Shown here in pieces: positions 19,125 to 38,502 of a stretch of DNA of 44,051 bases; within the stretch, counting starts at the first letter, position 1; every line of letters begins with the position of its first letter. The notes beneath the pieces are model-generated. The model searched no databases. It was not told the origin of the DNA and saw only the letters and a list, made by a program, of their open reading frames with translations. The stretch covers positions 1 to 44,051 of the IMG/VR virus record IMGVR_UViG_3300033148_004205; one strand, given 5' to 3'. The position numbers were made by a program, and so were the translations under genes. The DNA comes from a virus.

Positions 19125-20450
19125 TTAGCGCTTCGTGAAAGTCGGCCGTATAATCGGGAAATCATACTCGAGGAAGTAGGCCAGACCATCGCTCGCGTGA
19201 GAGAGCGTCCAGCCCCACGCTCGATTTATCTGGGTCTTATCTATATCCCCCTTGCTACTCCATGCCAAGTGTTCTAAATCGTAAATCACGTGATAGCAGC
19301 GCGGATGAATTAAAAGGCGGTGTTCCCCCTTGGCCGTCTCGAGCATGAAATTTGTGCAGTGCGCCCGAGCGTCGTAACCCGGATCTGATCGCCGATACCG
19401 ATAGTAAACCTTTTTCCGGGCGGCCATTACCTCGAGGTGATATTTAATAATATCATAGTGGGAGTCGTTATTCTTGGCGTCACCATATTGGCCGGCAGGG
19501 TCCCCGTAGACATGCCAGCCGGCGGAGTGAGCCCCATATTTCGAAAGGATTTTCTTGCACAGCGCGGGGGTTGTTAGTGGCAGAACGATCTCATCAAAGA
19601 CATAGACGAGCCGGCCGTCCGGGGATTTTTGGGCGATGACACAGACGTTCGGCTCCTTCCCGAAGTCGAAGCACAGGATTATCGGAAGGTTTGGCCGCCA
19701 CTCCATATTCCGCGTGACGTTCTTTCGGCGGTCGAAGGATTCATAAACAAGCCCCATGCCGGGCGGCAAGAAGCCCCCCTCGAGGAACACGTCCCGCATA
19801 TTGGCCGGGATGTTTGATAGCAGGGAATCCACGTAGCCGACGCGGTTGTAGACGTTCTCCTTTGACGATGCCCGGTAATAGGCATAGTTTTTATCGCCGG
19901 AATCGTGGAAGCGGTCTTTCAGCCAGGGAGTTTCTGCTGTCGTGGTGATAATGGACTGGATGCAGCGGGCATTTTTGTCTCGCATGCGAGAAAGCATGAT
20001 CATCCACGCCTCGTCACTCTTCGTAGAGCCCGCCTCATCCATCCAGCCATAAGCCAGCGTCGGCCCCTTGAGGGCGTCAGGGTTGTCGGATGAAAGGAAA
20101 TAGAGCCATCCACGCGGCTCGGAATCCCGGTTGCCCCACGGGAAAATAATGACGGGTTGCTGGCCCCGGATGAACGTGTACGGGATTTTGTGCCGGCCAA
20201 GGAATCCGCGCATAGCCTGGAGGGCGGTCCGCTTGAGCATGCCCATTGAAGGGGCGGTAACTATGCCGCCGCATTTCCTGTTGAGGTTGGCGAGCAGCCA
20301 GGTTTTTGGCGCGCCCGCAAACGATTTGCCGGAGCCCCAGCCGCCGAAATAGGCAAGGCATTCATAGGCGAAATTCCGAACGAACTCGAGTTGAGTCGGC
20401 AGGAGCTTTTCGTTGATGCTAAGTTGGATCTTGTTACTAGGAATTATCAA
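19125..20450 (-). CDS. terL: Terminase large subunit
   Basis: 441 residues. ATPase domain: GGWGSGKS (36-43, Walker A) and LAYGWMDE (132-139, Walker B plus catalytic Glu). Coupling motif region: QSIITTTAETPW (165-176). RNase H-like nuclease domain: ILCFDFG (Asp262), HVYGDPAG (Asp317) and HASDGLAYF (Asp421), the expected three acidic metal ligands. The enzyme translocates DNA into the procapsid and cuts concatemers. It overlaps the small terminase gene by 14 bases. I cannot tell cos from headful packaging from this alone, although the broken tail gene at the window ends fits a permuted genome. Confidence 0.95.
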   Translation of the reverse strand: MIIPSNKIQLSINEKLLPTQLEFVRNFAYECLAYFGGWGSGKSFAGAPKTWLLANLNRKCGGIVTAPSMGMLKRTALQAMRGFLGRHKIPYTFIRGQQPVIIFPWGNRDSEPRGWLYFLSSDNPDALKGPTLAYGWMDEAGSTKSDEAWMIMLSRMRDKNARCIQSIITTTAETPWLKDRFHDSGDKNYAYYRASSKENVYNRVGYVDSLLSNIPANMRDVFLEGGFLPPGMGLVYESFDRRKNVTRNMEWRPNLPIILCFDFGKEPNVCVIAQKSPDGRLVYVFDEIVLPLTTPALCKKILSKYGAHSAGWHVYGDPAGQYGDAKNNDSHYDIIKYHLEVMAARKKVYYRYRRSDPGYDARAHCTNFMLETAKGEHRLLIHPRCYHVIYDLEHLAWSSKGDIDKTQINRAWGWTLSHASDGLAYFLEYDFPIIRPTFTKR

Positions 20451-20970
20451 TATCGTCAGCGATCAGCTTTTGATCCCCGGCCCGGATTAGCTTAACGTCT
20501 TTGAGGTCCTCTGGCTCTCCGAGAATGTTGAGCGTCATTGTGATGTCGTAGTCTCGATCTGAAACGTCCAGCGGCCGCATGAGTCCTTGGAGGTTTGCCA
20601 TAGAGTCGAGGACCATCAGTGCCCCGCGCAAGTCCTTGCGGCTGAGCATGCGCCGGAGTAGATAGATTCTAGAAACAATGGCCCGTTGCCGAACGTCCTC
20701 AATGTTTATCTCTGGGATCGAGGCTCGCAGTTCTTCCCAGACTTGGCAGACGTTTTTTCGGATGGTCCCCGGCTTGAGGTTCTCGGCCTCGGTAATAATG
20801 TTGACGATCTCGTTTTCACTGTAGTGCCCGAGTGCGATCATGTCGGCAATCCTGCGCCGGCGGGCAGTCAGCTTGAGCGAGAAGCGGCGCTCAGTCCCGT
20901 CGTCCTTGGTTTTCTTGAAGGGTTTCCGAGGCCGGCCGCGCTTCTTTGGTAGATCCTTCGTCTTGACCAT
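20437..20970 (-). CDS. terS: Terminase small subunit
   Basis: 177 residues just before the large terminase. Residues 8-18 (PKKRGRPRKPF) form an AT-hook-like motif. Residues about 30-80 (LKLTARRRRIADMIALGHYS, ENEIVNIITEAENLKPGTIR) give a helix-turn-helix. The following helices suit oligomerisation. It should recognise the packaging site and feed DNA to the motor. The ribosome site is weak (CGGGAT), so coupling to the 86-aa gene it overlaps by 80 bases may matter. Confidence 0.78.
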   Translation of the reverse strand: MVKTKDLPKKRGRPRKPFKKTKDDGTERRFSLKLTARRRRIADMIALGHYSENEIVNIITEAENLKPGTIRKNVCQVWEELRASIPEINIEDVRQRAIVSRIYLLRRMLSRKDLRGALMVLDSMANLQGLMRPLDVSDRDYDITMTLNILGEPEDLKDVKLIRAGDQKLIADDIDNS

Positions 20971-21155: not shown

Positions 21156-22016
21156 CTACCTCTTCGATAGTTTGGCCCTCTTATTAACCTTTAATACCAT
21201 CCCATAATTATTAATTCCGCTCTTTAACTCCGCATCGTTTTTTAGTTGTAGCTTATTCCTTTTAAATGGCCGATAGTCAACCTGGTGTTGATAGCGGCCC
21301 CATTTTTTTGTTAGCTTAACTATATCAGGGTGTGCCCTCACTAATTCTTCTGCAAACTCCCGGCGGTTGTTTGTCTCTTTATAGTAGTTTGTCATCCCGC
21401 CTTTAACCTTCATCGTTGTTAATTTCCTGATAAGGAATGCATTAAAAAGAACTGTGCACCAGCCGCTTTTTAATACCCTAATACATAAATCCGTGTCATC
21501 GTTAAAGAAAAGGATATTCCTAAAAGGTTGTCCAGATTTGTCTTTCGCAAAGGTACGAATCAGCATATTTGAATATACGCGGGTATTAAAATATACAGGT
21601 GGTATTTTTATCTTTCGCGGAGCAAACATATAATAATGCATTCCAGCGATGGCTATATTTTTATATCGCAGCGTAAAGTCTTCGACCACGGCAAGGGGGG
21701 TTCCGTCACCACAAGGCACTTTCTGGTTCTTAGTGAGCCGATAAAGCCCTGTAATATTATCATCGAACGTCCAGAACCACTCGTAGCCTAGCTTGGCGGC
21801 ATGATCCCAGATTGCGTTTCGAGTTACCGACAATCCCTTGTCACGATGAGGGAGAATAATTATTCGTTTTTTGTCAACGTGTTTTGCGTATTGATCATAT
21901 TCTTGCTCTTCGATAAAGACCGTATAGGGAATATTAAGCCGGTCGAATAGCTTTATTGTTAACCGTGACTCATGCCGGCCTTTCGTTGGAATAAAAACGG
22001 GGAACCTCGGATTCAT
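21156..22016 (-). CDS. TAGT-type glycosyltransferase (TET/JBP-associated family)
   Basis: 286 residues. The N-terminal Rossmann-like GT-A features are VFIPTKGRHESRLT (7-20), TVFIEEQEYDQYAKH (32-46), KGLSVTRNAIWDHA (60-73) and a metal-binding FDDNI (84-88). Later come FFNDDTDLCIRVLKSGW (about 170-186), KLTTMKVKGG and a basic, lysine-rich C-terminus. These match the family described computationally by Iyer, Aravind and colleagues as sugar transferases for modified DNA bases in phages. No TET/JBP oxygenase or pyrimidine hydroxymethylase is visible here, so the acceptor is unknown. It is coupled (ATGA overlap) to the ParB-like gene. The region is AT-rich compared with the head genes. Family call from motif memory. 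Confidence 0.72.
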   Translation of the reverse strand: MNPRFPVFIPTKGRHESRLTIKLFDRLNIPYTVFIEEQEYDQYAKHVDKKRIIILPHRDKGLSVTRNAIWDHAAKLGYEWFWTFDDNITGLYRLTKNQKVPCGDGTPLAVVEDFTLRYKNIAIAGMHYYMFAPRKIKIPPVYFNTRVYSNMLIRTFAKDKSGQPFRNILFFNDDTDLCIRVLKSGWCTVLFNAFLIRKLTTMKVKGGMTNYYKETNNRREFAEELVRAHPDIVKLTKKWGRYQHQVDYRPFKRNKLQLKNDAELKSGINNYGMVLKVNKRAKLSKR

Positions 22017-22648
22017 TTATCCCCCTCGGCCGCCTCAACGTATACCTTATGGGCAACGCGGACAATTTCTGCCGGCGGAAACCATATCGACCGCGTATCT
22101 TCTGTAAGTGGTTGTTCAATAAGTTTCGAGAATGCTTCCAAGTCGCTTTTCTTAGCGAAGTGTACTGTTAATTGTTTCCAGCTTGTTAGATCCTTCTGGT
22201 CAAACTCTGGCATCCCGTCCCACTCTTTTTCAGGATCATTCTCCGGCCTATCCTTTGCCTGAAGTTGCCACTCCTCAAATCCATATTCTATTAAATCATC
22301 AAAATCGCAGTCACTCGCCAATAGCTCCCAATCCCAATCACCGGTGTTCCTGTTCGACCTGATGTTGTATTCGCGCACCTCTGCGGCCGTCAGCTTTCGA
22401 GACGGCACGCGCACATCAATCTTGTAGTTCGGCCGATGCAGGTGTGCCAGGACCTTAATCCGCTGGTGCCCGGCAATGAGCGTCCCGTTCGTATTGATGA
22501 CCGGCGGCTCCACGAGGTCAAACTTCTCGATAGACTTCTGCAGGTCGGCCCGCTGCTTATCAGACAGGGTGCGGGGATTCTTCGGCATTGGCGTCAGATC
22601 GCACAGTGCCCGCCGTTCCGTTTTCCACGATAGCTTTGCCTTGACCAT
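22013..22648 (-). CDS. ParB-like (ParB/Srx fold) protein
   Basis: 211 residues. The ParB N-terminal fold is clear: LCDLTPMPKNPRTLSDKQRA (15-34), LQKSIEKFDLVEPPVINTNG (36-55), then TLIAGHQRIKVLAHL (GHQR, the GxRR-like box) and AEVREYNIRSNRNTGDWDWE. The C-terminal extension (WKQLTVHFAKKSDLEAFSKL; TRSIWFPPAE) recurs in phage ParB-like proteins. In phages such proteins often neighbour DNA modification genes and may act as nucleases or ATP/CTP-using DNA-binding factors, not as plasmid partition proteins; no ParA is present. Translationally coupled to the TAGT gene. Confidence 0.85.
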   Translation of the reverse strand: MVKAKLSWKTERRALCDLTPMPKNPRTLSDKQRADLQKSIEKFDLVEPPVINTNGTLIAGHQRIKVLAHLHRPNYKIDVRVPSRKLTAAEVREYNIRSNRNTGDWDWELLASDCDFDDLIEYGFEEWQLQAKDRPENDPEKEWDGMPEFDQKDLTSWKQLTVHFAKKSDLEAFSKLIEQPLTEDTRSIWFPPAEIVRVAHKVYVEAAEGDK

Positions 22649-22654
22649 GTTGCC

Positions 22655-23371
22655 TCACCAAATCAAAACAGGCTGAACGTCAACCCCCGGCATGACAGGG
22701 ATCGACCACGTCACATCCGCGAAAGTTGCCGCCGGACAGCTCCCGAGAGCATGCCCCGTCGTTACGCTCACAAGCCGGATTGGCTCTCCGTTCTCGTCAA
22801 ACACCTGGTTGCCGTCCCCGTCGAGCAGCCACGACCACGAGGCGGCCGCGTAGTAGTAAACCACGCCCTTCTTGATTGCCCCGGCGTCGAAGAGGGTCTT
22901 GAGCGTTACGAGCCCGGCCCCGCCGCTAGCGACCTCATATTGCCACTCGGGCGGCGCGACCGCCCCGGTCAGCGCCTCCTCTATCTCGCTCGCGTAGATG
23001 AAGTAGCCATCGACCGGATCCGCCGGCGCATCCCATGACAGCTTCCCAAGGTTCAGGACGCCAGTCTGATAATCGTAAACGCCCTGACGCCATGTCCAAA
23101 CAACGGAGTATTGAACCGCACCAAAGGACATTTCGGAAGTCGACCATGTCTCCGCGTCTTTCTCGAGGACGGCCACGCGCTCGCTCCCCCTGAACACGAG
23201 GACGCGCTGGAAGTTGGGCATGGTGTGCTTGACCGTCCAGGTGAGCGTCACGCTTGCATGGTCAGCCTCGACGGTATAGGCAGCGTCCAGGTTTGAAATC
23301 AGGTCGTAGTCGGCGGCCACGAGCCCAGAGAGAGAGAGAGCAAAAAAGATCAATAGATGGACAGCCTTCAT
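22655..23371 (-). CDS. Secreted protein with Fn3-like domains
   Basis: Start placed at ATG 23371 (AAGGAGG six bases upstream). The 238-residue product opens with a signal peptide, MKAVHLLIFFALSLSGLVAA, with probable cleavage after VAA. The mature part has two beta-sandwich-like modules: ASVTLTWTVKHTMPNFQRVL...YSVVWTW, and KLSWDAPADPVDGYFIYASE, which has the W...P...Y.(I/V)Y signature of fibronectin type III. The signal-peptide codons contain a (CT)7 tract. A secreted phage-encoded protein outside the virion genes is unusual; it may act at the host envelope. Function unknown. Confidence 0.7.
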   Translation of the reverse strand: MKAVHLLIFFALSLSGLVAADYDLISNLDAAYTVEADHASVTLTWTVKHTMPNFQRVLVFRGSERVAVLEKDAETWSTSEMSFGAVQYSVVWTWRQGVYDYQTGVLNLGKLSWDAPADPVDGYFIYASEIEEALTGAVAPPEWQYEVASGGAGLVTLKTLFDAGAIKKGVVYYYAAASWSWLLDGDGNQVFDENGEPIRLVSVTTGHALGSCPAATFADVTWSIPVMPGVDVQPVLIW

Positions 23372-23381
23372 AGCAGCCTCC

Positions 23382-24125
23382 TTATCTTGCTGGCGCAACC
23401 TTTTCCATGAAGTCAACTACATACGGTCCCCAAGTGTCCTTCAGCCCGAAAGGGCCATGTATTGCCCCCTCGAGCGGGTGCAGCTCCGAGTAAACCCCGG
23501 CGGCCTGGGCCTGGCGGTTGATCTCGACCGCGCCGGCATAGGGGATACTAGCGTCCGCCGTCCCGTGGACGATGCAAACGGGCGGGTCTTTAGGCCGGAA
23601 GAAATTGATTCCTTCGTCGCTAATTATGTAGTGGTCGCTGGCAGATAGGATCCCCCACAAATCGATCATGCCGGCAATCTGCGGCTTGAGGAGGCAGGAC
23701 TGATAACCGCCAGGATCGGCAATGTCGGAATAGCAGGAGTGTAGCGAGATCATCGCCCCGCCCGAGCAGCCGCCGACGAAGATGCGCTCCGGGTCTACCC
23801 TAGCGGCCCCGGCGAAGCGGATAAATGACCGCCATATTTTTCGGGCCTCGAGGTGGACGTCGTCTAGGTAGGACCATCGCTCCGCCCAATCGGCCGGATA
23901 GTGCCCGAGCGTATAATACTCCATGTTGGCGACTACAACGCCGTGTAATGCAAACCAATTGCAGAGCTGAAGAATATTAGGATCATCTTTCCAGCCGTCA
24001 ACGTAAGAGCCCCCGTGCAAGAAGATGAGCAGCGGCAGCGTGCCCTCAGTGCAAGGATGAAAGATATCGTAGATTTCGTAATCCTCATTCCCATAGGACA
24101 GGTTCTGCCAATATCTGACCGTCAT
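23382..24125 (-). CDS. Alpha/beta-hydrolase fold esterase
   Basis: 247 residues, no signal peptide. The oxyanion loop is LIFLHGGSYVDGW (33-45, HGG). The nucleophile elbow is GGCSGG with Ser121. The acid is probably Asp191 in HGTADASIPY, and the base His223 in EGAIHGPF. This is a complete catalytic triad of the BD-FAE/CE-like esterase group, whose members remove acetyl or other acyl groups from carbohydrates. Between glycosyltransferases and a secreted protein it may edit acyl groups on a glycan or on precursors. It overlaps the zinc-ribbon gene as ATGA. Confidence 0.82.
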   Translation of the reverse strand: MTVRYWQNLSYGNEDYEIYDIFHPCTEGTLPLLIFLHGGSYVDGWKDDPNILQLCNWFALHGVVVANMEYYTLGHYPADWAERWSYLDDVHLEARKIWRSFIRFAGAARVDPERIFVGGCSGGAMISLHSCYSDIADPGGYQSCLLKPQIAGMIDLWGILSASDHYIISDEGINFFRPKDPPVCIVHGTADASIPYAGAVEINRQAQAAGVYSELHPLEGAIHGPFGLKDTWGPYVVDFMEKVAPAR

Positions 24126-24295
24126 GCTAGCGTCTCCTCAATGGGGCCGATAAACCGGCCGCGCATGTTGGTACACTTCGGGCACTGGAGGTAAAGAGCT
24201 CTGCACGTTTTCGGAACCATTGCAATCCAGATATAACTACATGTCGCGCACTTTGCATAGCCTTTGAAGTGGGGAACAAGGTTTTTACGATCCAT
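24122..24295 (-). CDS. Small zinc-ribbon protein (57 aa)
   Basis: A short gene from ATG 24295 (AAGGAAAT site) to TGA overlapping the esterase start. The product carries CATCSYIWIA and CRALYLQCPKC, i.e. C-x2-C...C-x2-C, a classic zinc ribbon, and ends FIGPIEETLA. It is coupled to the esterase. Such ribbons in phages often bind nucleic acid or partner proteins. Its place within the island is notable but no function can be assigned. Confidence 0.72.
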   Translation of the reverse strand: MDRKNLVPHFKGYAKCATCSYIWIAMVPKTCRALYLQCPKCTNMRGRFIGPIEETLA

Positions 24296-24300
24296 GTCTT

Positions 24301-25014
24301 TTATTTCCTTTTAGGCCCGCCGGGATTGCCACTGTACTCGAATGAGCCCGCCGTTCCGGTGAATTGCGCTTGATAGAACTCCTGCGGAAATCCCCAATAG
24401 GCAGCATATGTGATCTGCGGGACGTAGCGCCACTTTGCAGCCACTTGCATGAATCCGTCGATGACGTCCCAATCATGGCAGAGAACACATCGCCAGAGGG
24501 ATTCACGCGACGTCTCTTTAACGGACCGGTTGGCAATGCGCCGGGTGTGCATGAGAGCGTTCGTCCCGATGTGTAGCCGCACCGGGCTTTCCTTGCCCAC
24601 GACGCGTACCTCAAGGTCTCGCAACGAAATGAAGATGCCCCGGCTATAAGAGAAATCCGCCCCCTTGTCGGTTATGGGCTCGCGCAAAAAGCGGAGATGG
24701 TCAGGAAGCCAGAGGTCGTCATCGTCGAGGTAGGCAATAATCGGCTCTTCTGAAATATCGAATCCATGGTTTCGTGGGGCAACGCCTCGGATTCCCTTCT
24801 CACCGGAATGGTTTTCAGGCAGGTTGCACCATACTATCTTTCCGTCATGCTCATCTCGATATTCGGCTACAACCGCCTCCGTTTCATCGGTGCAGTGATC
24901 GCCGATGATATAGAGTTTCCAGTCTGTAAACGTCTGGCGCAATACAGACTCGATTGCCACTCTCAGGGAGTGGGGCCGGTGGAATGTGGGCGTGATGATT
25001 CCGATTTCTGCCAT
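24301..25014 (-). CDS. Glycosyltransferase family 2 (copy 1)
   Basis: 237 residues, GT-A fold: IGIITPTFHRPHSLRVAIES (4-23), then LYIIGDHCTDETE (34-46), and the nucleotide-sugar/metal site AYLDDDDLWLPDHL (about 94-107). A later WDVIDGFMQVA segment lies where the acceptor-binding base is found. The protein is soluble, without membrane segments. It is a paralogue of the next gene upstream, sharing GD-C-TDETE, SYSRGI/QYSRGI and a C-terminal VPQ/HITY-like stretch. The two overlap by 52 bases. It should transfer a sugar from a nucleotide donor; acceptor unknown. Confidence 0.85.
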   Translation of the reverse strand: MAEIGIITPTFHRPHSLRVAIESVLRQTFTDWKLYIIGDHCTDETEAVVAEYRDEHDGKIVWCNLPENHSGEKGIRGVAPRNHGFDISEEPIIAYLDDDDLWLPDHLRFLREPITDKGADFSYSRGIFISLRDLEVRVVGKESPVRLHIGTNALMHTRRIANRSVKETSRESLWRCVLCHDWDVIDGFMQVAAKWRYVPQITYAAYWGFPQEFYQAQFTGTAGSFEYSGNPGGPKRK

Positions 25015-25712
25015 GATCCGAAATACCTTTGTGGGTGATCCTGGTAAACTTCATAGGTTACGTGCGGGACATGCCGAACGATGCCGCCTAGTTTGATAAC
25101 GCGACGGACAAGATCCCAATCATATGCCTTGCTTCCAACCGCTCGAGTAGAGCGCCAGAGTTTCAGCGTCTTGCCCTTCACGCGCATAGCCATATCGCGG
25201 GAAATAACTATGGCGCTCGTATCGATGGTGTTCTCTCTGGGCCTGCTGTCGCCGATGACCTTCTTGACGTCGTGTTTGTTATAAAGTATCCCGCGTGAAT
25301 ATTGAAGATCGGCCCGTGGCACATCTTGATTGTCGAGCAGGTTTACGTGGGCTTGGAGGTGGTTTGAAAGCCAGATATTATCATCGTCGTTGAAGGCGAT
25401 GAACGGCTCCGATGACATCTCGAATCCGACGTTTTTAGCCGTCGCCCCGTTGTCTCCCGTTTTCCATCCGGTATGCCCGCCGCCGTGGTTGATGTCGAGA
25501 TTCTTCCAGTGAACGCGCATGTCCTTCCTCTGGAGTTCGCGCACCATCTCCTCTGTTTCATCGGTGCAACAGTCGCCGACAACGTAGAGTTGCAAGTCCG
25601 AATAGGTCTGCTCGAGGACGGATCGGATCGACCAGTAGAGAGAGGCCGGCCGATGGTAGGTTGATATGATGACACCGAAGATGGGATAGGAGCTGGCGGT
25701 TTCACTCACCAC
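24963..25712 (-). CDS. Glycosyltransferase family 2 (copy 2)
   Basis: 249 residues from GTG 25712 (GAGGGG site). Motifs: FGVIISTYHRPASLYWSIRS (12-31), LYVVGDCCTDETEEMV, and FIAFNDDDNIWLSNHL as the metal-binding site. The acceptor-side segment is KAYDWDLVRRVIKLGG. It looks like the result of a tandem duplication with copy 1, now well diverged. Coupled to the sulfotransferase gene upstream (11-base overlap). Soluble and therefore likely to act in the cytoplasm. Confidence 0.85.
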   Translation of the reverse strand: MVSETASSYPIFGVIISTYHRPASLYWSIRSVLEQTYSDLQLYVVGDCCTDETEEMVRELQRKDMRVHWKNLDINHGGGHTGWKTGDNGATAKNVGFEMSSEPFIAFNDDDNIWLSNHLQAHVNLLDNQDVPRADLQYSRGILYNKHDVKKVIGDSRPRENTIDTSAIVISRDMAMRVKGKTLKLWRSTRAVGSKAYDWDLVRRVIKLGGIVRHVPHVTYEVYQDHPQRYFGSWQKSESSRPHSTGPTP

Positions 25713-26409
25713 GATAAAGCCCCTCGAAATCTTTCGGCACGATGGAGTAGAAATACTCGAGGTCCTCTTCCGTAAAATGGGTTCGCCACTCGCCAGGGCG
25801 GGACTGCCAGTGCCAGCGGCCGCTTGGCTTCTCGGGCCGCTTCCACCTCTCCGGCCTGGGCAGGTCGTGATGAGCGGCTATCGCCTCCATAGTTTCATCA
25901 AAACGATAATATAAATCCTCGTACCTGATGCACAGGACCGGCTTTGCGGCAAGCCAGGCGGAGACGGACTTGTACCAGTGTTCGACCGGCGTTTGATACG
26001 GCTTGTCTATCCTGGCCCGCGGTGCCGCTTCCCAATTAATCCAATCGCGGATGTATCTCCCGAACGTTGCCGGCCGGGCAATGGGCCCTAGCTGTTCGCC
26101 GGGACGCCTGGCAGGAACGCCCACAAGATGAAACATCGGAGAGCGATACATGGAAACGAGAACGTCCCGGCCATCCCTGTAAATATATATCTGCCCGTCA
26201 CGCCTTGCTCTGGGCGTTGCCGGGTGCCCGCCGAAAAGGCCATAGTGCGCCAATCTGAACTTGCGATAGATTCCGTTTGCGTCCGGGTCGCACTGGTCGC
26301 GAGAGACGTCCATCTTCCCGCGATAGAAGTTTGTCTCGAGGCAGTCGCCGAGCCAGAAGTTTCCAGACCGAACGTGCCCGACGGTTTTAAGTTTCTTTAA
26401 TATCGGCAT
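25702..26409 (-). CDS. Sulfotransferase
   Basis: 235 residues, start at ATG 26409 after AGGGGGATCTT. PAPS-binding signatures are present: VGHVRSGNFWLGD (10-22) in the place of the PRSGTTW 5'-phosphosulfate loop, IYIYRDGRDVLVSMYRS (75-91) as the 3'-phosphate motif, LCIRYEDL, and RPGEWRTHFT (204-213), the usual C-terminal GxWxxxF-type box. A variant residue pattern in the first loop (SGNFW) is noted. The enzyme should move a sulfo group from PAPS to a hydroxyl, most likely on a sugar given that glycosyltransferases flank it on both sides. No PAPS synthesis gene is in the window, so the host must supply it. Confidence 0.85.
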   Translation of the reverse strand: MPILKKLKTVGHVRSGNFWLGDCLETNFYRGKMDVSRDQCDPDANGIYRKFRLAHYGLFGGHPATPRARRDGQIYIYRDGRDVLVSMYRSPMFHLVGVPARRPGEQLGPIARPATFGRYIRDWINWEAAPRARIDKPYQTPVEHWYKSVSAWLAAKPVLCIRYEDLYYRFDETMEAIAAHHDLPRPERWKRPEKPSGRWHWQSRPGEWRTHFTEEDLEYFYSIVPKDFEGLYRGE

Positions 26410-27127
26410 TTTCAAGATCCCCCTTTGACCACTTAGCTTCTGTCCTGTTGCCGCTTGCGCCCACTAGATGATGGATCTCGGATCTATGAGTGTGAACGAA
26501 CACCCATCCACGGGCGGCAGCGCGCTTGCAATATTCTACGTCTGACAATAGGTGGAAGTTACCTTCGTTGAGCAATCCCATTTCGTTGATTAGGTCGCGT
26601 TTGATATAGGCGCAACAGAACGGAAACCACTCCCTGAAATACATCAGCCCGCCTAGCTCCATCTCCTCGAGATGGTCAAGACACCTATTCTTTGCAAAAT
26701 GCTCGAGGGCGCAGTTACGATGTTTGAGCCGGCCGTTTTTGTATTTCAACTGCGGGCAGGCCAGGCCAACCTTCTTGTTTTTCGAGGGGGCATAGGCAGC
26801 GCGGCGCAACTCTTTCAGCCAGCCCGTCGCGCACAGGGTATCGCTATTGAGCAGGACAACGTCGTTCTCCCCCGCCTCCTGGATGATCTGGTTTGCCCCG
26901 GCCGTGAAGCCCAGGTTAGTTTCGTTAATGATCAGAGTGTCAACGTGCTCTTTGATAATGCCCGCCGGGATTTTAGAAAGGGAGTCATCACTGTTGACGA
27001 TCAAGATTATCTCGTTAGGCGCATCCGCGCATGCGGCCGCCGACACGATGGCAAGAGACGTTAGGCCTGGCGTGTTGTACTCAATGATACCGATTGACGT
27101 ACTTAATAAACTTTGCGAAGCGCTCAT
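26387..27127 (-). CDS. Glycosyltransferase family 2, rhamnosyltransferase-like
   Basis: 246 residues. Motifs: [20 protein letters not shown] (12-31), then INETNLGFTAGANQIIQEA and VVLLNSDTLCATGWLKEL, the NxGF..G.N and LNPD/LNSD boxes of rhamnosyl/galactosyl GT2 enzymes. GGLMYFREWFPFCCAYIKRD and LLSDVEYCKRAAARGW form the acceptor side with D-x-E/D. It differs clearly from the two paralogous GT2 genes. It overlaps both neighbours (23 and 47 bases). Confidence 0.83.
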   Translation of the reverse strand: MSASQSLLSTSIGIIEYNTPGLTSLAIVSAAACADAPNEIILIVNSDDSLSKIPAGIIKEHVDTLIINETNLGFTAGANQIIQEAGENDVVLLNSDTLCATGWLKELRRAAYAPSKNKKVGLACPQLKYKNGRLKHRNCALEHFAKNRCLDHLEEMELGGLMYFREWFPFCCAYIKRDLINEMGLLNEGNFHLLSDVEYCKRAAARGWVFVHTHRSEIHHLVGASGNRTEAKWSKGDLENADIKET

Positions 27128-27893
27128 AACCTGGCAGCCTTAATTCTACGACCTGGGTTGCTGATGGTTGCCCGTTGAAGTGATACACGACGAACGAGTC
27201 AGGGTCTATTTTGTCATTTCCGAACAGCCGGAGTTTCTTCTTTTTGTGCATCTCTGAATATTCGAATATGACTTTATAGATTACATGGAATGACTTGGGC
27301 CAGTAGTCGATGTGGCGATCTCGTTCGCTTTCCTCGAAGTGACGAGAAAATACAGCCTCGATGAATTCTTGATCGCCGTGGTGAATGGGGTTCCGACGGC
27401 ATATCTCAAAGCTAGACCATATTCTTGCGGCATATTCGGATCGGCGGTTGATATAAAACAGGCCAGTTGCAATCCGCTTTTCGTTCTTGCCCCAAGAGTG
27501 GGACGCCTGCAGGAATATCATCGGCCGCCTGCGGATGTCGATCAGCTCGAATATAGGCGACGGGTCATTGATGAACAGGGTATCAATATCGACGAAGAGG
27601 ATATCGTCCGGCAGGAGGTCTTTTCCGTAGGGTGAGAAGAAAAGCAGCTTGTTCCACCAGCCCTCGAGTTTTTTCTTGCCTGGGGTTCGGGCCTCTCTAA
27701 TGGCGCAAGGGTGATATAGCAGCGGGCCGGTCGGATAGAAACTAACGCGGGGAAATTCCTTGGTTGGCGGACTGATATTGTCGGTCAGCACGTTGATGTC
27801 AACGTGATACGGCTCGAGGGAATAGCAGAACATGGCAAAGTCACGCTTGGAATATTTATCGCCCGTCCAGACCGTCCATATTTCGCGTTTCAT
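27081..27893 (-). CDS. GT-A glycosyltransferase with DxD motif (GT8/GT32-like)
   Basis: 270 residues: [20 protein letters not shown] at the N-terminus, [20 protein letters not shown], then [14 protein letters not shown] (about 98-111), the DxD metal site, and a later [16 protein letters not shown] and [12 protein letters not shown]. The pattern resembles GT8/GT32-type retaining transferases, but I cannot fix the family. No membrane segment. It overlaps the GT2 gene by 47 bases, forming one compact cluster with it and the sulfotransferase. Confidence 0.72.
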
Positions 27894-27896
27894 TGC

Positions 27897-28511
27897 TCAT
27901 TCCTTCCCGGCCCTATGGCGGGCCTCCAGCCTCTTCTTGAATGTCTTCACCTGCCACCTGCGCTCGGCATCCCCGGCGGCATCCCCGGCGGCATCCCTGG
28001 CGGCAGCCCAGGCGGCATCCCTGGCGGCAGCCCAGGCGGCATCCCTGGCGGCAGCCCAGGCGGCAGCCCAGGCGGCATCCCAGGCGGCAGCCCTGGCGGC
28101 ATCCCCGGCGGCAGCCCTGGCGGCAGCCCAGGCGGCAGCCCAGGCGGCATCCCAGGCGGCGGCCAATTCCTCTTCGGTGGCCTTGCCGCGCGCGTACCGC
28201 CGGGCAACTTCGATGGCCTCGCGCGGCCGCTTGTCGCCTGGAAAAGCCTTCCCAAAAAACTTGAGAACATGCGCCGCGCAGTCGCAGGCAAAGAGTCGAG
28301 CCAGCTTGTCGCGCGTAGCCGCCTGGTCCTCCGGCACCGCTCTCAGCGACCACAGCGCGTCAGCGATGCCGTTGTGTTTGAGGAGTACCGCCAGCGGAAT
28401 CGGTTTATCCCGGCCGTACTTCTTGATGCCGCCGAGCGCCTCGGCGAGATACCGATAGCGGCCGGTGCAAGCCCCGGCTTTGTGTAATAGTGCAAACGTG
28501 GTTGATAACAT
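27897..28511 (-). CDS. Imm5-like protein with Ala/Trp repeat helix
   Basis: Start at ATG 28511 (GAGGAGGG site, TGATG overlap with the gene before). 204 residues. The N-terminal domain has [20 protein letters not shown], then [20 protein letters not shown] and [20 protein letters not shown], which match the Imm-5-like putative immunity domain found in phages and polymorphic toxin loci. From about residue 115 a long helix of [17 protein letters not shown]-type repeats follows, ending with a basic [12 protein letters not shown]. Its DNA is a tandem array and its length probably varies between strains. No toxin partner is seen. Function unknown. Confidence 0.72.
27970..28165. repeat. GC-rich tandem repeats in the Imm5-like gene
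   Basis: About 195 bases of 12-base units alternating GGCGGCATCCCT- and GGCGGCAGCCCA-like forms. They encode the Ala/Trp/Arg/Asp helix repeats. Units are multiples of three, so copy-number change keeps the frame. On the other strand they read as a Gly-Pro-rich frame, which is an artefact. Confidence 0.85.
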
Positions 28512-29209
28512 CACACACCCTCCTCTTTTTCAAACCGATTCGACCAGGGATAGACAGGAACGCTAATCGCGGAGTGGTATCCCATTTGAAACATATTGAC
28601 CCCCTTCCCGCGCAGCCACTCCGCCAGGCCGTTGAACTGGAGAATCCAATCGCGGAATCGATCCCTGTAGAAATCATCGAAAACGTCCTTGTGATGAGCG
28701 TTGCCGGAGTCGGCCCCCTCGATGTATTGGCAATCGCAACCAACTAGAACGATGGGGCGGCAGCCCATGAGATAGGCAATCTGGGCAGCCAGGAAGCCGG
28801 ACGATCCGTGGGCCAGATCGCACGAGGCTTTGTCTGGGGTGACGATGAAGCGGTTGGTGGTGGCGTCCCTGCGGGGAACATACTTGTATCCGTAGATCGG
28901 CCCCTTGTGCGCCTGCATGGCGTGTGTCTGGGGGACGGTTAGGCGCTTGTCCTTTGTGATGATAGGGCCGTGGAATATCTGGAACATGCGCTCAAGGACC
29001 GGGCCTCGAGGGTCGGCATCGTCCCGCCCGACCAGGTAGTGGGCGGCATGATATTGAGTGGCGAGATTGCAAGCGAAGGTGATTCCGCCGGCCTGCAGGA
29101 TCTTCTCAACGTCGAAGAACTTTTTAGAATAGCCATTGCCGAACACGAACGCGGGCAGGCCAACGTGGATATTCCGAAGGTTCTTTAGTGGGGCTAGCGC
29201 GGCGGTCAT
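28511..29209 (-). CDS. GT42/DUF115-like putative glycosyltransferase
   Basis: Start at ATG 29209, overlapping the stop of the hydrolase gene; an upstream in-frame start would overlap further. 232 residues. AFVFGNGYSKKFFDVEKILQ (about 20-39) and ITFACNLAT resemble the G-N-G-x-S and F-x-C-N motifs of CstII-type sialyltransferases (GT42) and DUF115/MAF proteins. Later GSSGFLAAQIAYLMGCRPIV and LVGCDCQYIEG fit the second Rossmann half. The likely role is sugar transfer from a nucleotide donor. Exact family not certain. Confidence 0.6.
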   Translation of the reverse strand: MTAALAPLKNLRNIHVGLPAFVFGNGYSKKFFDVEKILQAGGITFACNLATQYHAAHYLVGRDDADPRGPVLERMFQIFHGPIITKDKRLTVPQTHAMQAHKGPIYGYKYVPRRDATTNRFIVTPDKASCDLAHGSSGFLAAQIAYLMGCRPIVLVGCDCQYIEGADSGNAHHKDVFDDFYRDRFRDWILQFNGLAEWLRGKGVNMFQMGYHSAISVPVYPWSNRFEKEEGV

Positions 29210-30441
29210 ATAGTGGCATCCTGCACTTTGGTATATTTGATATATCCTGTATCCTTGAAATCGTCGTTCGGATCCCACTCGAACTCAAGAGCGGTCCCGT
29301 CGTGATAGTAGATCCTGCCAAGAGATGCGCCCTTAGCCATCTCGATCTTTTCCATGCCGGCAAGTTTCACCGCCATCGCCGCGTAGCTTTGAGCTTGATA
29401 GAGGGGATATAGTTTTCGGATGCCAACCGGGCCGGCAGACCACTCGCACAGGCGCATGCGGCCGAAGATGGGATGGTGGCCGCCGGAAACGAGGTTCCAG
29501 TAGAAAACATATTCAGCCTTGCATAGATCAGACAGAAGGATGACGGTCCGCTGAAAAACGTCGCGAAGGTGGACGGATTCATGGAGGGCAATTAGGCTCG
29601 GGTCCTTGGACATGAACATCTTCAGGGTATCGGGAACGCTCCGAAGGCTATTCGGATATTGCGCCCGGTATTTCGAAAACAGGGGGTGTTCTCGAGGGTC
29701 CGGGCCGCCGTACTCGGTGCAGATCATCGGGACGTCTGATTTTCCGCAACTCTCTAACTCCGCCCGGAACCACTGGAATTTTATCGGCAGCTCATACTTG
29801 TTTTGGTATCCCCGACAATCGCAATAGTCGAACGGGGAATGCTCGATAACCGTCTTGAAAAACTTGGCATAGGCCGGAGTTCCCTTGGAGAAATGCCCGG
29901 CACAGTTGACGCCGACGATCTTGACATCGGGATTTACATCCTTAGCGGCCGAGTAGAGAAGCGAATAGAGATCGCAATATTCATCAGCCCTATCGGACGG
30001 CCAATGGATCGCAGATGAAGCCGGCTCCGTATTGCACTGCAGGAAGGTCACGCGGCCGTTACATCGATCCACAACCGCTCTGACCATCGCCGTGAACTTA
30101 TCCCGATAGTTGACGTGCACGAGCGACCCCTTAGCTCTTTTTGCGCTCGTGTAAATGGGATGGTCGGTAAACAGGTTGACAAGGGCAACATCGCCGGGGG
30201 CAATCTGTTCTAGGAAGCGGTCGAGTAGATGCCAATCGAAAGGGTCCGGCAGCGTCTTTCGGCCGACCGGCTCAAGGCTCGACCACGAGAGCGATATTTT
30301 CGACCCATGCCCGCCGAGCTCTCGGATGGTCGGCATAAACGTCTCGCCGAGATATTTCTCACCGTAGGCGATGGCGAGTGGGGCCTTCGGCCCGCCCTTC
30401 CTCGGAAACAGCTTCCTCAACGTCCGTCCAATCACTGACAT
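29206..30441 (-). CDS. Clan GH-A-like glycoside hydrolase
   Basis: 411 residues, AAGGAGGATTAAT site. TIM-barrel features: ISLSWSSLEPVGRKTLPDPF (49-68, W..(I/L)EP), FLQCNTEPAS with Glu139 as likely acid/base, and MICTEYGG with Glu243 as likely nucleophile. The spacing and strand context (beta-4 and beta-7) agree with GH5/GH39/GH42-type enzymes; the canonical NE is here NTE. No signal peptide, so it acts in the cytoplasm or on lysis. It may trim the glycan made by its neighbours or attack a host polysaccharide. It opens the island in transcription order. Confidence 0.7.
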   Translation of the reverse strand: MSVIGRTLRKLFPRKGGPKAPLAIAYGEKYLGETFMPTIRELGGHGSKISLSWSSLEPVGRKTLPDPFDWHLLDRFLEQIAPGDVALVNLFTDHPIYTSAKRAKGSLVHVNYRDKFTAMVRAVVDRCNGRVTFLQCNTEPASSAIHWPSDRADEYCDLYSLLYSAAKDVNPDVKIVGVNCAGHFSKGTPAYAKFFKTVIEHSPFDYCDCRGYQNKYELPIKFQWFRAELESCGKSDVPMICTEYGGPDPREHPLFSKYRAQYPNSLRSVPDTLKMFMSKDPSLIALHESVHLRDVFQRTVILLSDLCKAEYVFYWNLVSGGHHPIFGRMRLCEWSAGPVGIRKLYPLYQAQSYAAMAVKLAGMEKIEMAKGASLGRIYYHDGTALEFEWDPNDDFKDTGYIKYTKVQDATI

Positions 30442-34770: not shown

Positions 34771-35238
34771 TTAGGATAGAATGGGACCTTGAAATGAGCC
34801 CGCTTTACATTTGCGGACTCGATTTAATTTTAATTGAGCCCGCCAATATCTTATTAGGGGCTTCGGGATCTCTGATGCCCTTGTGAATGGTATTGTTTTA
34901 TTCCAGATCAATAACTGAATTACATAACCATCAACTATATTGGCGACTCTCATTTTCTTTGAGGATCTATTGTTTCTCATGAATTGCTCTTTATTTTCTA
35001 AATAATAATTAATTTCATAATTCCGCCTTCTCTCTGGATGTCTTTCTATATATCTCCTATTTCTTATATATTGTTTTTCTAAATATTTCGGATTTCCCTT
35101 CTTTGTTCCATAATGGAAACTTTTTCTGTATCCTTTAACTTTTTCTAGGTTGTTTTTGGCCCACAGTTTTGAGGTTTCGCCATATCTTGCTTTTCTTAAC
35201 TTCTCTTCCGTCACTTCCTCAATCGGTATTTTAATCAC
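34771..35238 (-). CDS. AT-rich, basic, HNH-region-like hypothetical protein (155 aa)
   Basis: 155 residues from GTG 35238 (AAGGAGGG site). The middle is very basic and Tyr/Asn/Arg-rich (PKYLEKQYIRNRRYIERHPE, RRRNYEINYYLENKEQFMRN). The end TRASEIPKPLIRYWRAQLKL NR-type segment is found at the C-terminus of phage HNH/homing-type and DNA-binding proteins. No HNH cysteine/histidine core is visible. Its DNA is clearly richer in A+T than both neighbours, which points to recent acquisition. It could be a homing-like selfish gene or its remnant. Confidence 0.6.
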   Translation of the reverse strand: MIKIPIEEVTEEKLRKARYGETSKLWAKNNLEKVKGYRKSFHYGTKKGNPKYLEKQYIRNRRYIERHPERRRNYEINYYLENKEQFMRNNRSSKKMRVANIVDGYVIQLLIWNKTIPFTRASEIPKPLIRYWRAQLKLNRVRKCKAGSFQGPILS

Positions 35239-36940: not shown

Positions 36941-37173
36941 CACTTGCCCTCCTCGCCGGTAAAATAGCTTTCTGGAAAATCACCCCGGAACGTGCAATTA
37001 AAGCCTGGTTGGTCGAAGTGGACCTCCGCTGCCCGCGCAACACCTGCCAAGCTACGGAGGCGGACTTTGGGCCTCGCGCCGATAAACCGAATAACCCGCC
37101 TTGCATAAACCCTGACGCCGCCCTGCTGGCGCTTGAAGACGACGGTCTCACCGGGCATGAGGATGTCGGTCAT
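36940..37173 (-). CDS. Small beta-rich hypothetical protein (77 aa)
   Basis: Start at ATG 37173 (GGAGG seven bases upstream, ATGA overlap with the radical SAM gene); a longer frame exists but lacks a site. MTDILMPGETVVFKRQQGGV and VRRVIRFIGARPKVRL-type strands make it look like a small beta-barrel (perhaps KOW- or hypermodification-adaptor-like). Ends FTGEEGK, the junction motif. Unrecognised. Confidence 0.6.
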   Translation of the reverse strand: MTDILMPGETVVFKRQQGGVRVYARRVIRFIGARPKVRLRSLAGVARAAEVHFDQPGFNCTFRGDFPESYFTGEEGK

Positions 37174-37976
37174 TTGCGGGCCTCCGAACTTCGATATGCG
37201 GCGGGCCTTGCCCATTTCCGTTGTAGCGCCCGCCAGGGCCGATCTGGTGCGGTATTCGCCGAGTCGCGATACAACATCGCGAACGGCAGAAACCCCATTT
37301 TATAAACGCGCTCAAGGCGGCGCTCGGCGGCGGCCAGGGTGTCGCTGCCATGTCCGATCAGGACGAAACACCGCTTCTTTTCGATTGACACCCCCGCCAT
37401 GACCGTGGCTACTTTTTCAAGGTGCCGCTCGGCCCCCGGGTAGTCACAGGCAAACCACGCCTCGTTCAGACTGATTCCCTCAAGAAGCCGCATGTGCCAT
37501 TCGTCGAACAGGCGCGCATCCAGGCCGCCAGAGAATACCGCGCCCTTCGATTGCCGCCCGAGCATGGCGAAGACGGCCTCGATGTGCCGCCTTGAGCAGG
37601 CGAGCAGGTTGTTATCGAAGATGTTCCAGCCATCCTCGATTGGCAATTCGCGGATACCGCCCTCGCGCTCCGGGACGAAGCAGAAGGCACACTTGCGAAT
37701 ACAGCCGCGCGATGTAATTACGGCCCCTTCTTTTAAAAACGCGCCAGGGACAAAAAGCCCACCGGAATGATCAAGTGCCGGTCCGCCGATCTCGACGTGC
37801 GAATAGAAGCGCCCCCATGACTCGGCAAGGCGCCGCGCCTCGTAAATATCCCAAGTAAAGGCAACGGAGATCATGACGCGCAGGTCTTCACGAGGCCGGA
37901 ATAATGGCGGGTCGCCAACAAACGCGAGGGCGTCGCCCGGCGTCCATTTTGTTCTACGCGGAAAAACTCGGATCAC
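37170..37976 (-). CDS. Radical SAM protein
   Basis: 268 residues from GTG 37976 with GAGGAGGCGAGGGA upstream; the same frame is open earlier without a site. The iron-sulfur motif is SRGCIRKCAFCF: Cys92, Cys96 and Cys99 (C-x3-C-x2-C). After it come ELPIEDGWNIFDNNLLACSR, FSGGLDARLFDEWH and FVLIGHGSDTLAAAERRL, giving a partial TIM barrel. The N-terminal part has VEIGGPALDHSG. This family recurs in phage genomes near recombination genes; its reaction is unknown. Because the genome also has TAGT and ParB-like genes, nucleotide or base modification is one possibility. Confidence 0.82.
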   Translation of the reverse strand: MIRVFPRRTKWTPGDALAFVGDPPLFRPREDLRVMISVAFTWDIYEARRLAESWGRFYSHVEIGGPALDHSGGLFVPGAFLKEGAVITSRGCIRKCAFCFVPEREGGIRELPIEDGWNIFDNNLLACSRRHIEAVFAMLGRQSKGAVFSGGLDARLFDEWHMRLLEGISLNEAWFACDYPGAERHLEKVATVMAGVSIEKKRCFVLIGHGSDTLAAAERRLERVYKMGFLPFAMLYRDSANTAPDRPWRALQRKWARPAAYRSSEARK

Positions 37977-38502
37977 TCCCTCGCCTCCTCGTCGCCCTTC
38001 CCGTCGCAGTCCGGGTACTGGCAATAAAACTGCGGCTCGACGCACCCGCACCCGGCGGTTTGTCATACTTGCAGAGGTCCGCCCCATGACATTCTTCCGC
38101 GACATCACATCGAGCCACGCCCTCCTTGCCGGTGAGGAACTTAACGCCGCTTCTGATTTTTTCGAACACTTTCGAATCCGTCGGCAGACCGCAACCATCT
38201 GCCAATAGAATTTTAAAATGTTCCACTGCTCGGTCGATGCGGGATTGGAGGGTGCCAGAACAATGTTGAGCCCATGCCCACCCGGAACCGTATGTATCGT
38301 GCTTAAACTCGGCCGGTTCGGAATCGACTGGCTCGCCACGGTCAAATGCCAAATGACCCGCGTTAAATTCGTCCACCTCCTCCGCGCTCTCCTCCACCAT
38401 CTTGATGAGGGCGTTTATTTTTTTAAAGACTATCTCTCTTGGGATTGGTCCGTGTTTGTACCATGCTTTTTTCCACGCTTTGATTTCGTCGAGCTTGTTC
38501 AT
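37973..38502 (-). pseudogene. Paralogue copy A fused to Cys-rich tail, frame broken
   Basis: From ATG 38502: MNKLDEIKAWKKAWYKHGPI, LIKMVEESAEEVDEF, LQSRIDRAVEHFK and FLTGKEG, as in copies B and C. Here no stop follows; the frame reads on into RCDVAEECHGADLCKYDKPP. It then turns into Arg/Ser-rich noise (stop at 37954). Shifting -1 near 38048 restores a cysteine pattern, GCGCVEPQFYCQYPDCDGKG, ending EEARE with TGA overlapping the radical SAM GTG. That overlap supports the shifted frame as the original one. Either a frameshift mutation, a base-call error in a G/C run or programmed slippage explains it. Confidence 0.55.

Follow-up and report, generated by a model that had tools for sequence, protein, structure and literature searches.

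Previous studies showed that the TAGT glycosyltransferase of phage T6 (beta-glucosyl-hydroxymethylcytosine-alpha-glucosyltransferase, PF20691) adds a second glucose to glucosylated hydroxymethylcytosine in DNA (PMC13216743; PMC13390438), that TAGTs occur without T4-type glucosyltransferases in 288 of 753 phage genomes (PMC13216743), and that OM43 phages carry sulfotransferases of unknown function (PMC10580990). Here we describe a phage in which genes of both kinds lie in one gene block. The window analysed is the whole IMG/VR virus record IMGVR_UViG_3300033148_004205 (44,051 bases) of an uncultivated tailed phage. Its left part contains the tail and head genes, the terminase genes lie at 19125-20970, replication and recombination genes (DnaD-like, SbcC-like ATPase, RecT) follow at the right, and nearly all genes are on the minus strand. 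Between the replication and terminase genes, 13 packed minus-strand open reading frames (ORFs) run from 30441 to 21156. In our estimate, with a probability of about 0.6, they consist of two independently assembled modules, a glycan/sulfate cargo cassette (module A, 30441-22655) and a conserved MPEF-TAGT unit (module B, 22648-21156), which adjoin and probably form one transcription unit.

The strongest new observation of this analysis is the pairing of TAGT with MPEF, an apparently undescribed domain of about 60 residues (consensus W..MPEF.Q ... VHF ... F..LI.Q..T.KT.SIW.P), which in the window forms the C-terminus of a ParB-like protein (22013-22234, minus strand; hidden Markov model (HMM) E 2.2e-26 at 22231(-)) encoded directly before TAGT. 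Among TAGT homologues gathered from IMG/VR and GTDB, MPEF lay within 2.5 kb on the same strand in 105 of the 107 testable loci and, by HMM, nowhere else in their flanks. IMG/VR was also scanned with MPEF alone, which was meant to break circularity, and among the best 80 of more than 500 matches (some contigs overlapping the first set) TAGT was present in 80/80 fetched loci, immediately downstream in 74. Besides the ParB fusion, MPEF occurs by itself, in ORFs of about 75-118 aa, or as an N-terminal fusion to TAGT, the latter in Aeromonas phage Aeh1, Vibrio phage 1.124.O, L038 and L041 (L numbers denote compared sequences); examples of the domain lie at L007:2283-2510, L013:9679-10008 and, in Aeh1, L119:3695-4894. 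Stand-alone and fused copies had no significant Pfam match, and no PHROG match except a weak one of a single 152-aa ORF to a PHROG of unknown function. In Aeh1, a second MPEF-like ORF (L119:4894-5094, HMM E 3.4e-7) lies just downstream of the MPEF-TAGT fusion.

A first-pass annotation, made from the sequence without database searches, had called a ParB-like gene and a TAGT here, and both calls hold. The ParB-like protein, which has no Pfam match, falls in a PHROG ParB family, and its AlphaFold2 model (pLDDT 89.8) matches ParB-N structures (Foldseek 6e-7), with AGHQR at residue 59 as the GxxR box; TAGT lies well above the PF20691 cut-off and keeps the residues invariant in 14 homologues, and the model of a homologue has a GT-A fold. 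Module B would then be a conserved phage unit in which MPEF, here behind ParB-N, is the near-obligate partner of TAGT and probably serves to target it or to hold its acceptor. The fusion to ParB and the location among replication and packaging genes make DNA or a DNA-associated protein a plausible acceptor. When a natural MPEF-TAGT fusion was modelled with AlphaFold, confidence was high for the GT-A domain and low for the MPEF part, so the docking of the two could not be read from the model.

The genomic surroundings of other TAGTs were compared with those in the window. Upstream ORFs were mostly replication or DNA-metabolism genes, and ParB-TAGT preceded terminase genes in many loci, a single cluster of homologous TerL genes covering 32 of them (downstream sequence reached at least 2.5 kb in 90 loci); this cluster replaced a regular-expression count of downstream terminases (5/90), which was too strict. 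The order ParB/MPEF-TAGT-TerS-TerL was shared, at 44-58% TAGT identity, by the Pantoea/Erwinia prophages L107, L108 and L004 and by L015, L036, L066 and L106, of which L036, L066 and L106 (58% TAGT identity) have it without upstream glycan genes; unlike the window, those tested carry no sulfotransferase. In L106 (8328-9209, a contig of a metagenome-assembled genome) a frameshift or an assembly error divides the TAGT frame between two ORFs. Of about 105 further TAGT virus records (26 + 48 + 31), many of them fragments, not one had a match to the sulfotransferase family PF00685. The base composition of the window TAGT gene (GC 0.41, GC at third codon positions (GC3) 0.44) also stands apart from the large ORFs of module A (GC3 0.62-0.75) and from TerL and portal (GC3 0.68-0.69).

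These results bear on the proposal, related to one of the options in the first-pass annotation, that all genes of the island serve one DNA-hypermodification pathway, in which ParB/TAGT would put the first sugar on a modified base, the other glycosyltransferases would extend it and the sulfotransferase would cap it. The physical contiguity and tight packing of the genes speak for it, as do the activity of the T6 enzyme on DNA (PMC13216743) and the sugar-nucleotide or sugar-tailoring genes at some TAGT loci. The window TAGT shares with T6 TAGT the Pfam family, the GT-A fold and the aligned positions of the acidic motif; however, identity between the two is just 25% across 141 aa, and a search of 30 kb of T6 revealed no MPEF domain. 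T6 TAGT adjoins a gene annotated as thymidylate synthase, which to judge by its position encodes the dCMP hydroxymethylase, whereas a thymidylate-synthase-type hydroxymethylase (PF00303) was found in 0/65 MPEF-TAGT records including the window, with working search controls and with the window record possibly a fragment. TET (PF12851) was likewise found in 0/65 TAGT records including the window, a weak negative because the search had no positive control. We thus found no source of a hydroxylated base, and in this the window departs from the phage base-hypermodification systems, which combine a TET or hydroxymethylase with a glycosyltransferase. C5 methylases occurred in 5/65 MPEF-TAGT records. 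The recurrence of the same gene set in other phages had been named beforehand as a test, and it went against a single pathway in both directions: ParB/MPEF-TAGT travels without the sulfotransferase, mostly with replication genes upstream, and sulfotransferases occur in viral glycan islands where no TAGT was detected. A single DNA pathway is accordingly improbable, and still less probable is its most specific form, in which ParB/MPEF directs TAGT to phage DNA and the extended chain is capped, leaving virion DNA with a sulfated glycan. Sulfated glycans on DNA are in any case unlikely, and we know of no such base modification.

Turning to module A, the sulfotransferase is, as the first-pass annotation had claimed, a family member with intact-looking motifs for 3'-phosphoadenosine-5'-phosphosulfate (PAPS), with a profile match above the cut-off, the 5'-phosphosulfate-binding loop RSGNFWL (16-22, with Arg in place of the usual Lys), the 3'-phosphate-binding motif YIYRDGRDVLVS (77-88), the candidate catalytic His57, YEDL (165) and RPGEW (206). 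We therefore place it in the PAPS-dependent PF00685 family and predict glycan sulfation. The esterase, Imm5-like and two GT2 calls (b and c) were also above the Pfam cut-off (Table 1); the esterase has the motifs HGGSY, G-C-S121-G-G, D191 in HGTADASIP and H223 in GAIHG, and GT2 b and c are tandem paralogues, 38% identical. The calls of a DUF115/GT42-like protein, a DxD enzyme and a third GT2 stood on weaker ground but had support, from Pfam matches at or below cut-off or from PHROG matches; the DUF115-like protein additionally matches phrog_4603 'alpha-2,3-sialyltransferase' (1.5e-6) and has a GNGYS..CN motif. No profile backed the GH-A, Fn3 and zinc-ribbon calls, which rely on motifs. In the GH-A-like protein NTEP (137-140; N137, E139) and TEYG (242-245; T242, E243) are separated by about 100 residues, as is the case in clan GH-A, and its best PDB sequence matches are weak ones to GH1 glucosidases (E 0.13-0.83). 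For the Fn3-like gene, an element aaggaggcagcc resembling a ribosome-binding site, inferred from the listed ORF, lies just 5' of the ATG at 23371; with this start the product gains a signal peptide, containing the N-terminal hydrophobic segment AVHLLIFFALSLSGLVAAD, and the overlap with the esterase gene is gone. Probably the gene starts there and its product is secreted.

Table 1. Features of the island and the adjoining terminase genes in the window. Profile matches were judged against curated Pfam cut-offs, with PHROG profiles used alongside.
Feature	Coordinates	Strand	Basis
GH-A-like hydrolase, 411 aa	29206..30441	-	motif-level call; no Pfam/PHROG family
DUF115/MptE-like, GT42-like protein, 255 aa	28511..29278	-	PF01973 2.4e-4 (below cut-off)
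Imm5-like phage protein, Ala-rich repeats, 205 aa	27897..28514	-	PF21805 (Imm5_like) 3.9e-11; phrog_18326 2.4e-37
DxD glycosyltransferase, 270 aa	27081..27893	-	phrog_1962 3.8e-8; VDIDTLF motif at 101
GT2 glycosyltransferase a, 246 aa	26387..27127	-	PF00535 7.1e-5, 23.2 bits vs cut-off 23.3
PAPS-type sulfotransferase, 237 aa	25702..26415	-	PF00685 (Sulfotransfer_1) 3.7e-7, 30.2 bits vs cut-off 22
GT2 glycosyltransferase b, 249 aa	24963..25712	-	PF00535 4.9e-17
GT2 glycosyltransferase c, 237 aa	24301..25014	-	PF00535 3.4e-18
Zinc-ribbon-like ORF, 57 aa	24122..24295	-	two CxxC pairs from sequence; no family above cut-off
Alpha/beta esterase, 247 aa	23382..24125	-	PF20434 BD-FAE 1.8e-11
Secreted (probable) beta-rich (Fn3-like) protein	22655..23371	-	start moved from 23416 to ATG 23371; no family
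ParB-N domain (~1-130) + C-terminal MPEF domain (~140-200), TAGT partner	22013..22648	-	phrog_620 4.2e-22
TAGT-family GT-A glycosyltransferase, 286 aa	21156..22016	-	PF20691 1.7e-34, 120 bits vs cut-off 27.5; phrog_842 1.2e-38
Terminase small subunit (TerS) candidate	20437..20970	-	position only, directly upstream of TerL; no family match
Terminase large subunit (TerL)	19125..20450	-	phrog_2 3.5e-30

Every ORF of the gene set claimed beside the terminase was found where it had been placed, and every one is on the minus strand. Between 30441, at the GH-A-like gene, and the TAGT stop at 21156, neighbouring ORFs either overlap or lie no more than 6 nt apart; a 185-nt gap then separates TAGT from TerS. 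This tight packing, with the ORFs abutting ParB-TAGT-TerS-TerL, makes the earlier suggestion of one transcription unit probable, and we infer an operon shared by both modules. Two further minus-strand genes of the window deserve mention: a radical SAM protein in the early region (37170-38345; phrog_9298 7.5e-22), which has a homologue in L057 some 3 kb downstream of the TAGT gene, and an ORF at 34771-35238 with 34% GC in a 55% GC phage, probably a recent acquisition. Radical SAM was considered as a recurring TAGT partner and dropped (7/65 records, no clear pattern).

No close relatives of the sulfotransferase, the GH-A-like protein or TerL were found in IMG/VR, tblastn found no sulfotransferase, DUF115-like or GH-A-like homologues in INPHARED phages, and a BLAST search for a bacterial source of the sulfotransferase gave no match in 195 genomes of one phylum, this search having no positive control; PDB sequence matches of the sulfotransferase were just short chance matches to trimerisation tags. 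A scan with the GT2 paralogues b and c reached 19 viral loci, and sulfotransferase-type genes lay within 10 kb of GT2 in two contigs, L211 and L214 (one clear, two marginal). L211 (IMG/VR, 1-20447) combines GT2s, a Sulfotransfer_2 match (1.2e-9) and a second sulfotransferase-like ORF with a DUF115-like ORF and a DxD ORF, the last two judged by motif alone, and so resembles the window cassette in gene content. These two large islands belong to other virus lineages than the window, yielded no TAGT match (above cut-off in 0/18 GT2 records tested, L211 included) and show detectable homology to the cassette at the GT2 level only. In L205 (1290-12560) terminase genes are interleaved with NeuB, UDP-GlcNAc 2-epimerase, nucleotidyltransferase, hexapeptide acetyltransferase and MptE-like genes, possibly a phage nonulosonic acid pathway. 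In Citrobacter phage phiNP, a sialyltransferase-annotated gene and a homologue of the DxD glycosyltransferase occupy the corresponding position immediately before terS-terL, but the stretch examined has no sulfotransferase and no annotated TAGT. A Gtr-type seroconversion cassette comprises a membrane flippase, a membrane glucosyltransferase and a GtrB-like bactoprenol glycosyltransferase, and the window cassette falls outside this definition. Given the parallels in L211/L214, L205, phiNP and the reported phage sulfotransferases, we count the cassette among the viral glycan islands, of which, as an already known kind, it is a rich example.

As a cargo cassette in front of the terminase genes, module A may work as follows: its soluble glycosyltransferases (DUF115/GT42-like, DxD-type, three GT2) would draw on host nucleotide sugars to assemble a short oligosaccharide, which would be sulfated by the PAPS sulfotransferase and could be trimmed or de-acylated by the esterase and the GH-A-like enzyme, these activities and acceptors being predicted ones. 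A virion protein or a host-surface glycan would be a likelier acceptor than DNA, and the earlier idea of a sulfated glycan built and trimmed on the virion or the host surface may hold. Glycosylation and sulfation of virion proteins (capsid or tail), altering surface charge, adsorption or particle stability, is the tentative choice. The transferases look cytosolic, with no clear transmembrane segment in those of the cassette (KD19 at most 1.61), which fits protein modification before assembly, the cassette adjoins packaging and head genes, and mycobacteriophages with glycosyltransferase genes offer a precedent (Freeman et al. 2023, as cited in PMC11256854). The esterase and the secreted protein fit this less well, and the protein acceptor is conjectural. 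Those two products could instead act on envelope glycans, and a change of the host surface (lipopolysaccharide, capsule or exopolysaccharide) in infection or lysogeny, for superinfection exclusion, is nearly as likely, though it too is doubtful. Viral glycosyltransferase islands with sulfotransferases elsewhere, and the accessory genes that occupy the slot before the terminase in other phages (phiNP), are in its favour, whereas in the window no flippase, polymerase or membrane Gtr-type protein, no membrane-anchored glycosyltransferase architecture and no nucleotide-sugar synthesis gene was recognised. Rather unlikely is a patchwork of unrelated accessory genes gathered at one permissive site with no common pathway. 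Homologues of the Imm5-like protein do occur in unrelated, non-glycan contexts, Burkholderia phage Bcep176 among them, the gene set was found in no other phage and composition varies, but six or more carbohydrate-active or sulfate-transfer genes, whose ORFs overlap and which include a tandem GT2 duplication, are hardly an unrelated collection.

Several observations weigh against two independently assembled modules. Only 6 nt separate the modules, which are probably transcribed together and may therefore be functionally coupled. Many of the compared TAGT contigs are short fragments. A minority of TAGT loci do have sugar genes: NAD-dependent epimerases (PF01370 above cut-off) occur in 10/65 records, with an epimerase/dehydratase beside, near or directly downstream of TAGT in L018, L022, L041 and L042, which suggests from gene content that some TAGTs use a phage-made nucleotide sugar; DUF115-like and GT9-like genes lie upstream of ParB-TAGT in the Pantoea/Erwinia prophages, and a DegT aminotransferase and an acetyltransferase in the TAGT locus L002. 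The GC content of the ParB gene (0.52) is intermediate, and the deviating composition of TAGT may stem from the donor of this single gene.

For the large MPEF-TAGT subfamily, its near-exclusive pairing in phages with no detected base-hydroxylating enzyme means that the label 'TET-associated' gives no ground for inferring DNA modification, and the search for the acceptor would most naturally start from the MPEF domain. For the phage itself, a sulfotransferase inside a tight glycosyltransferase cassette, with viral parallels, leads to the concrete prediction that glycans of the virion or the host are sulfated.

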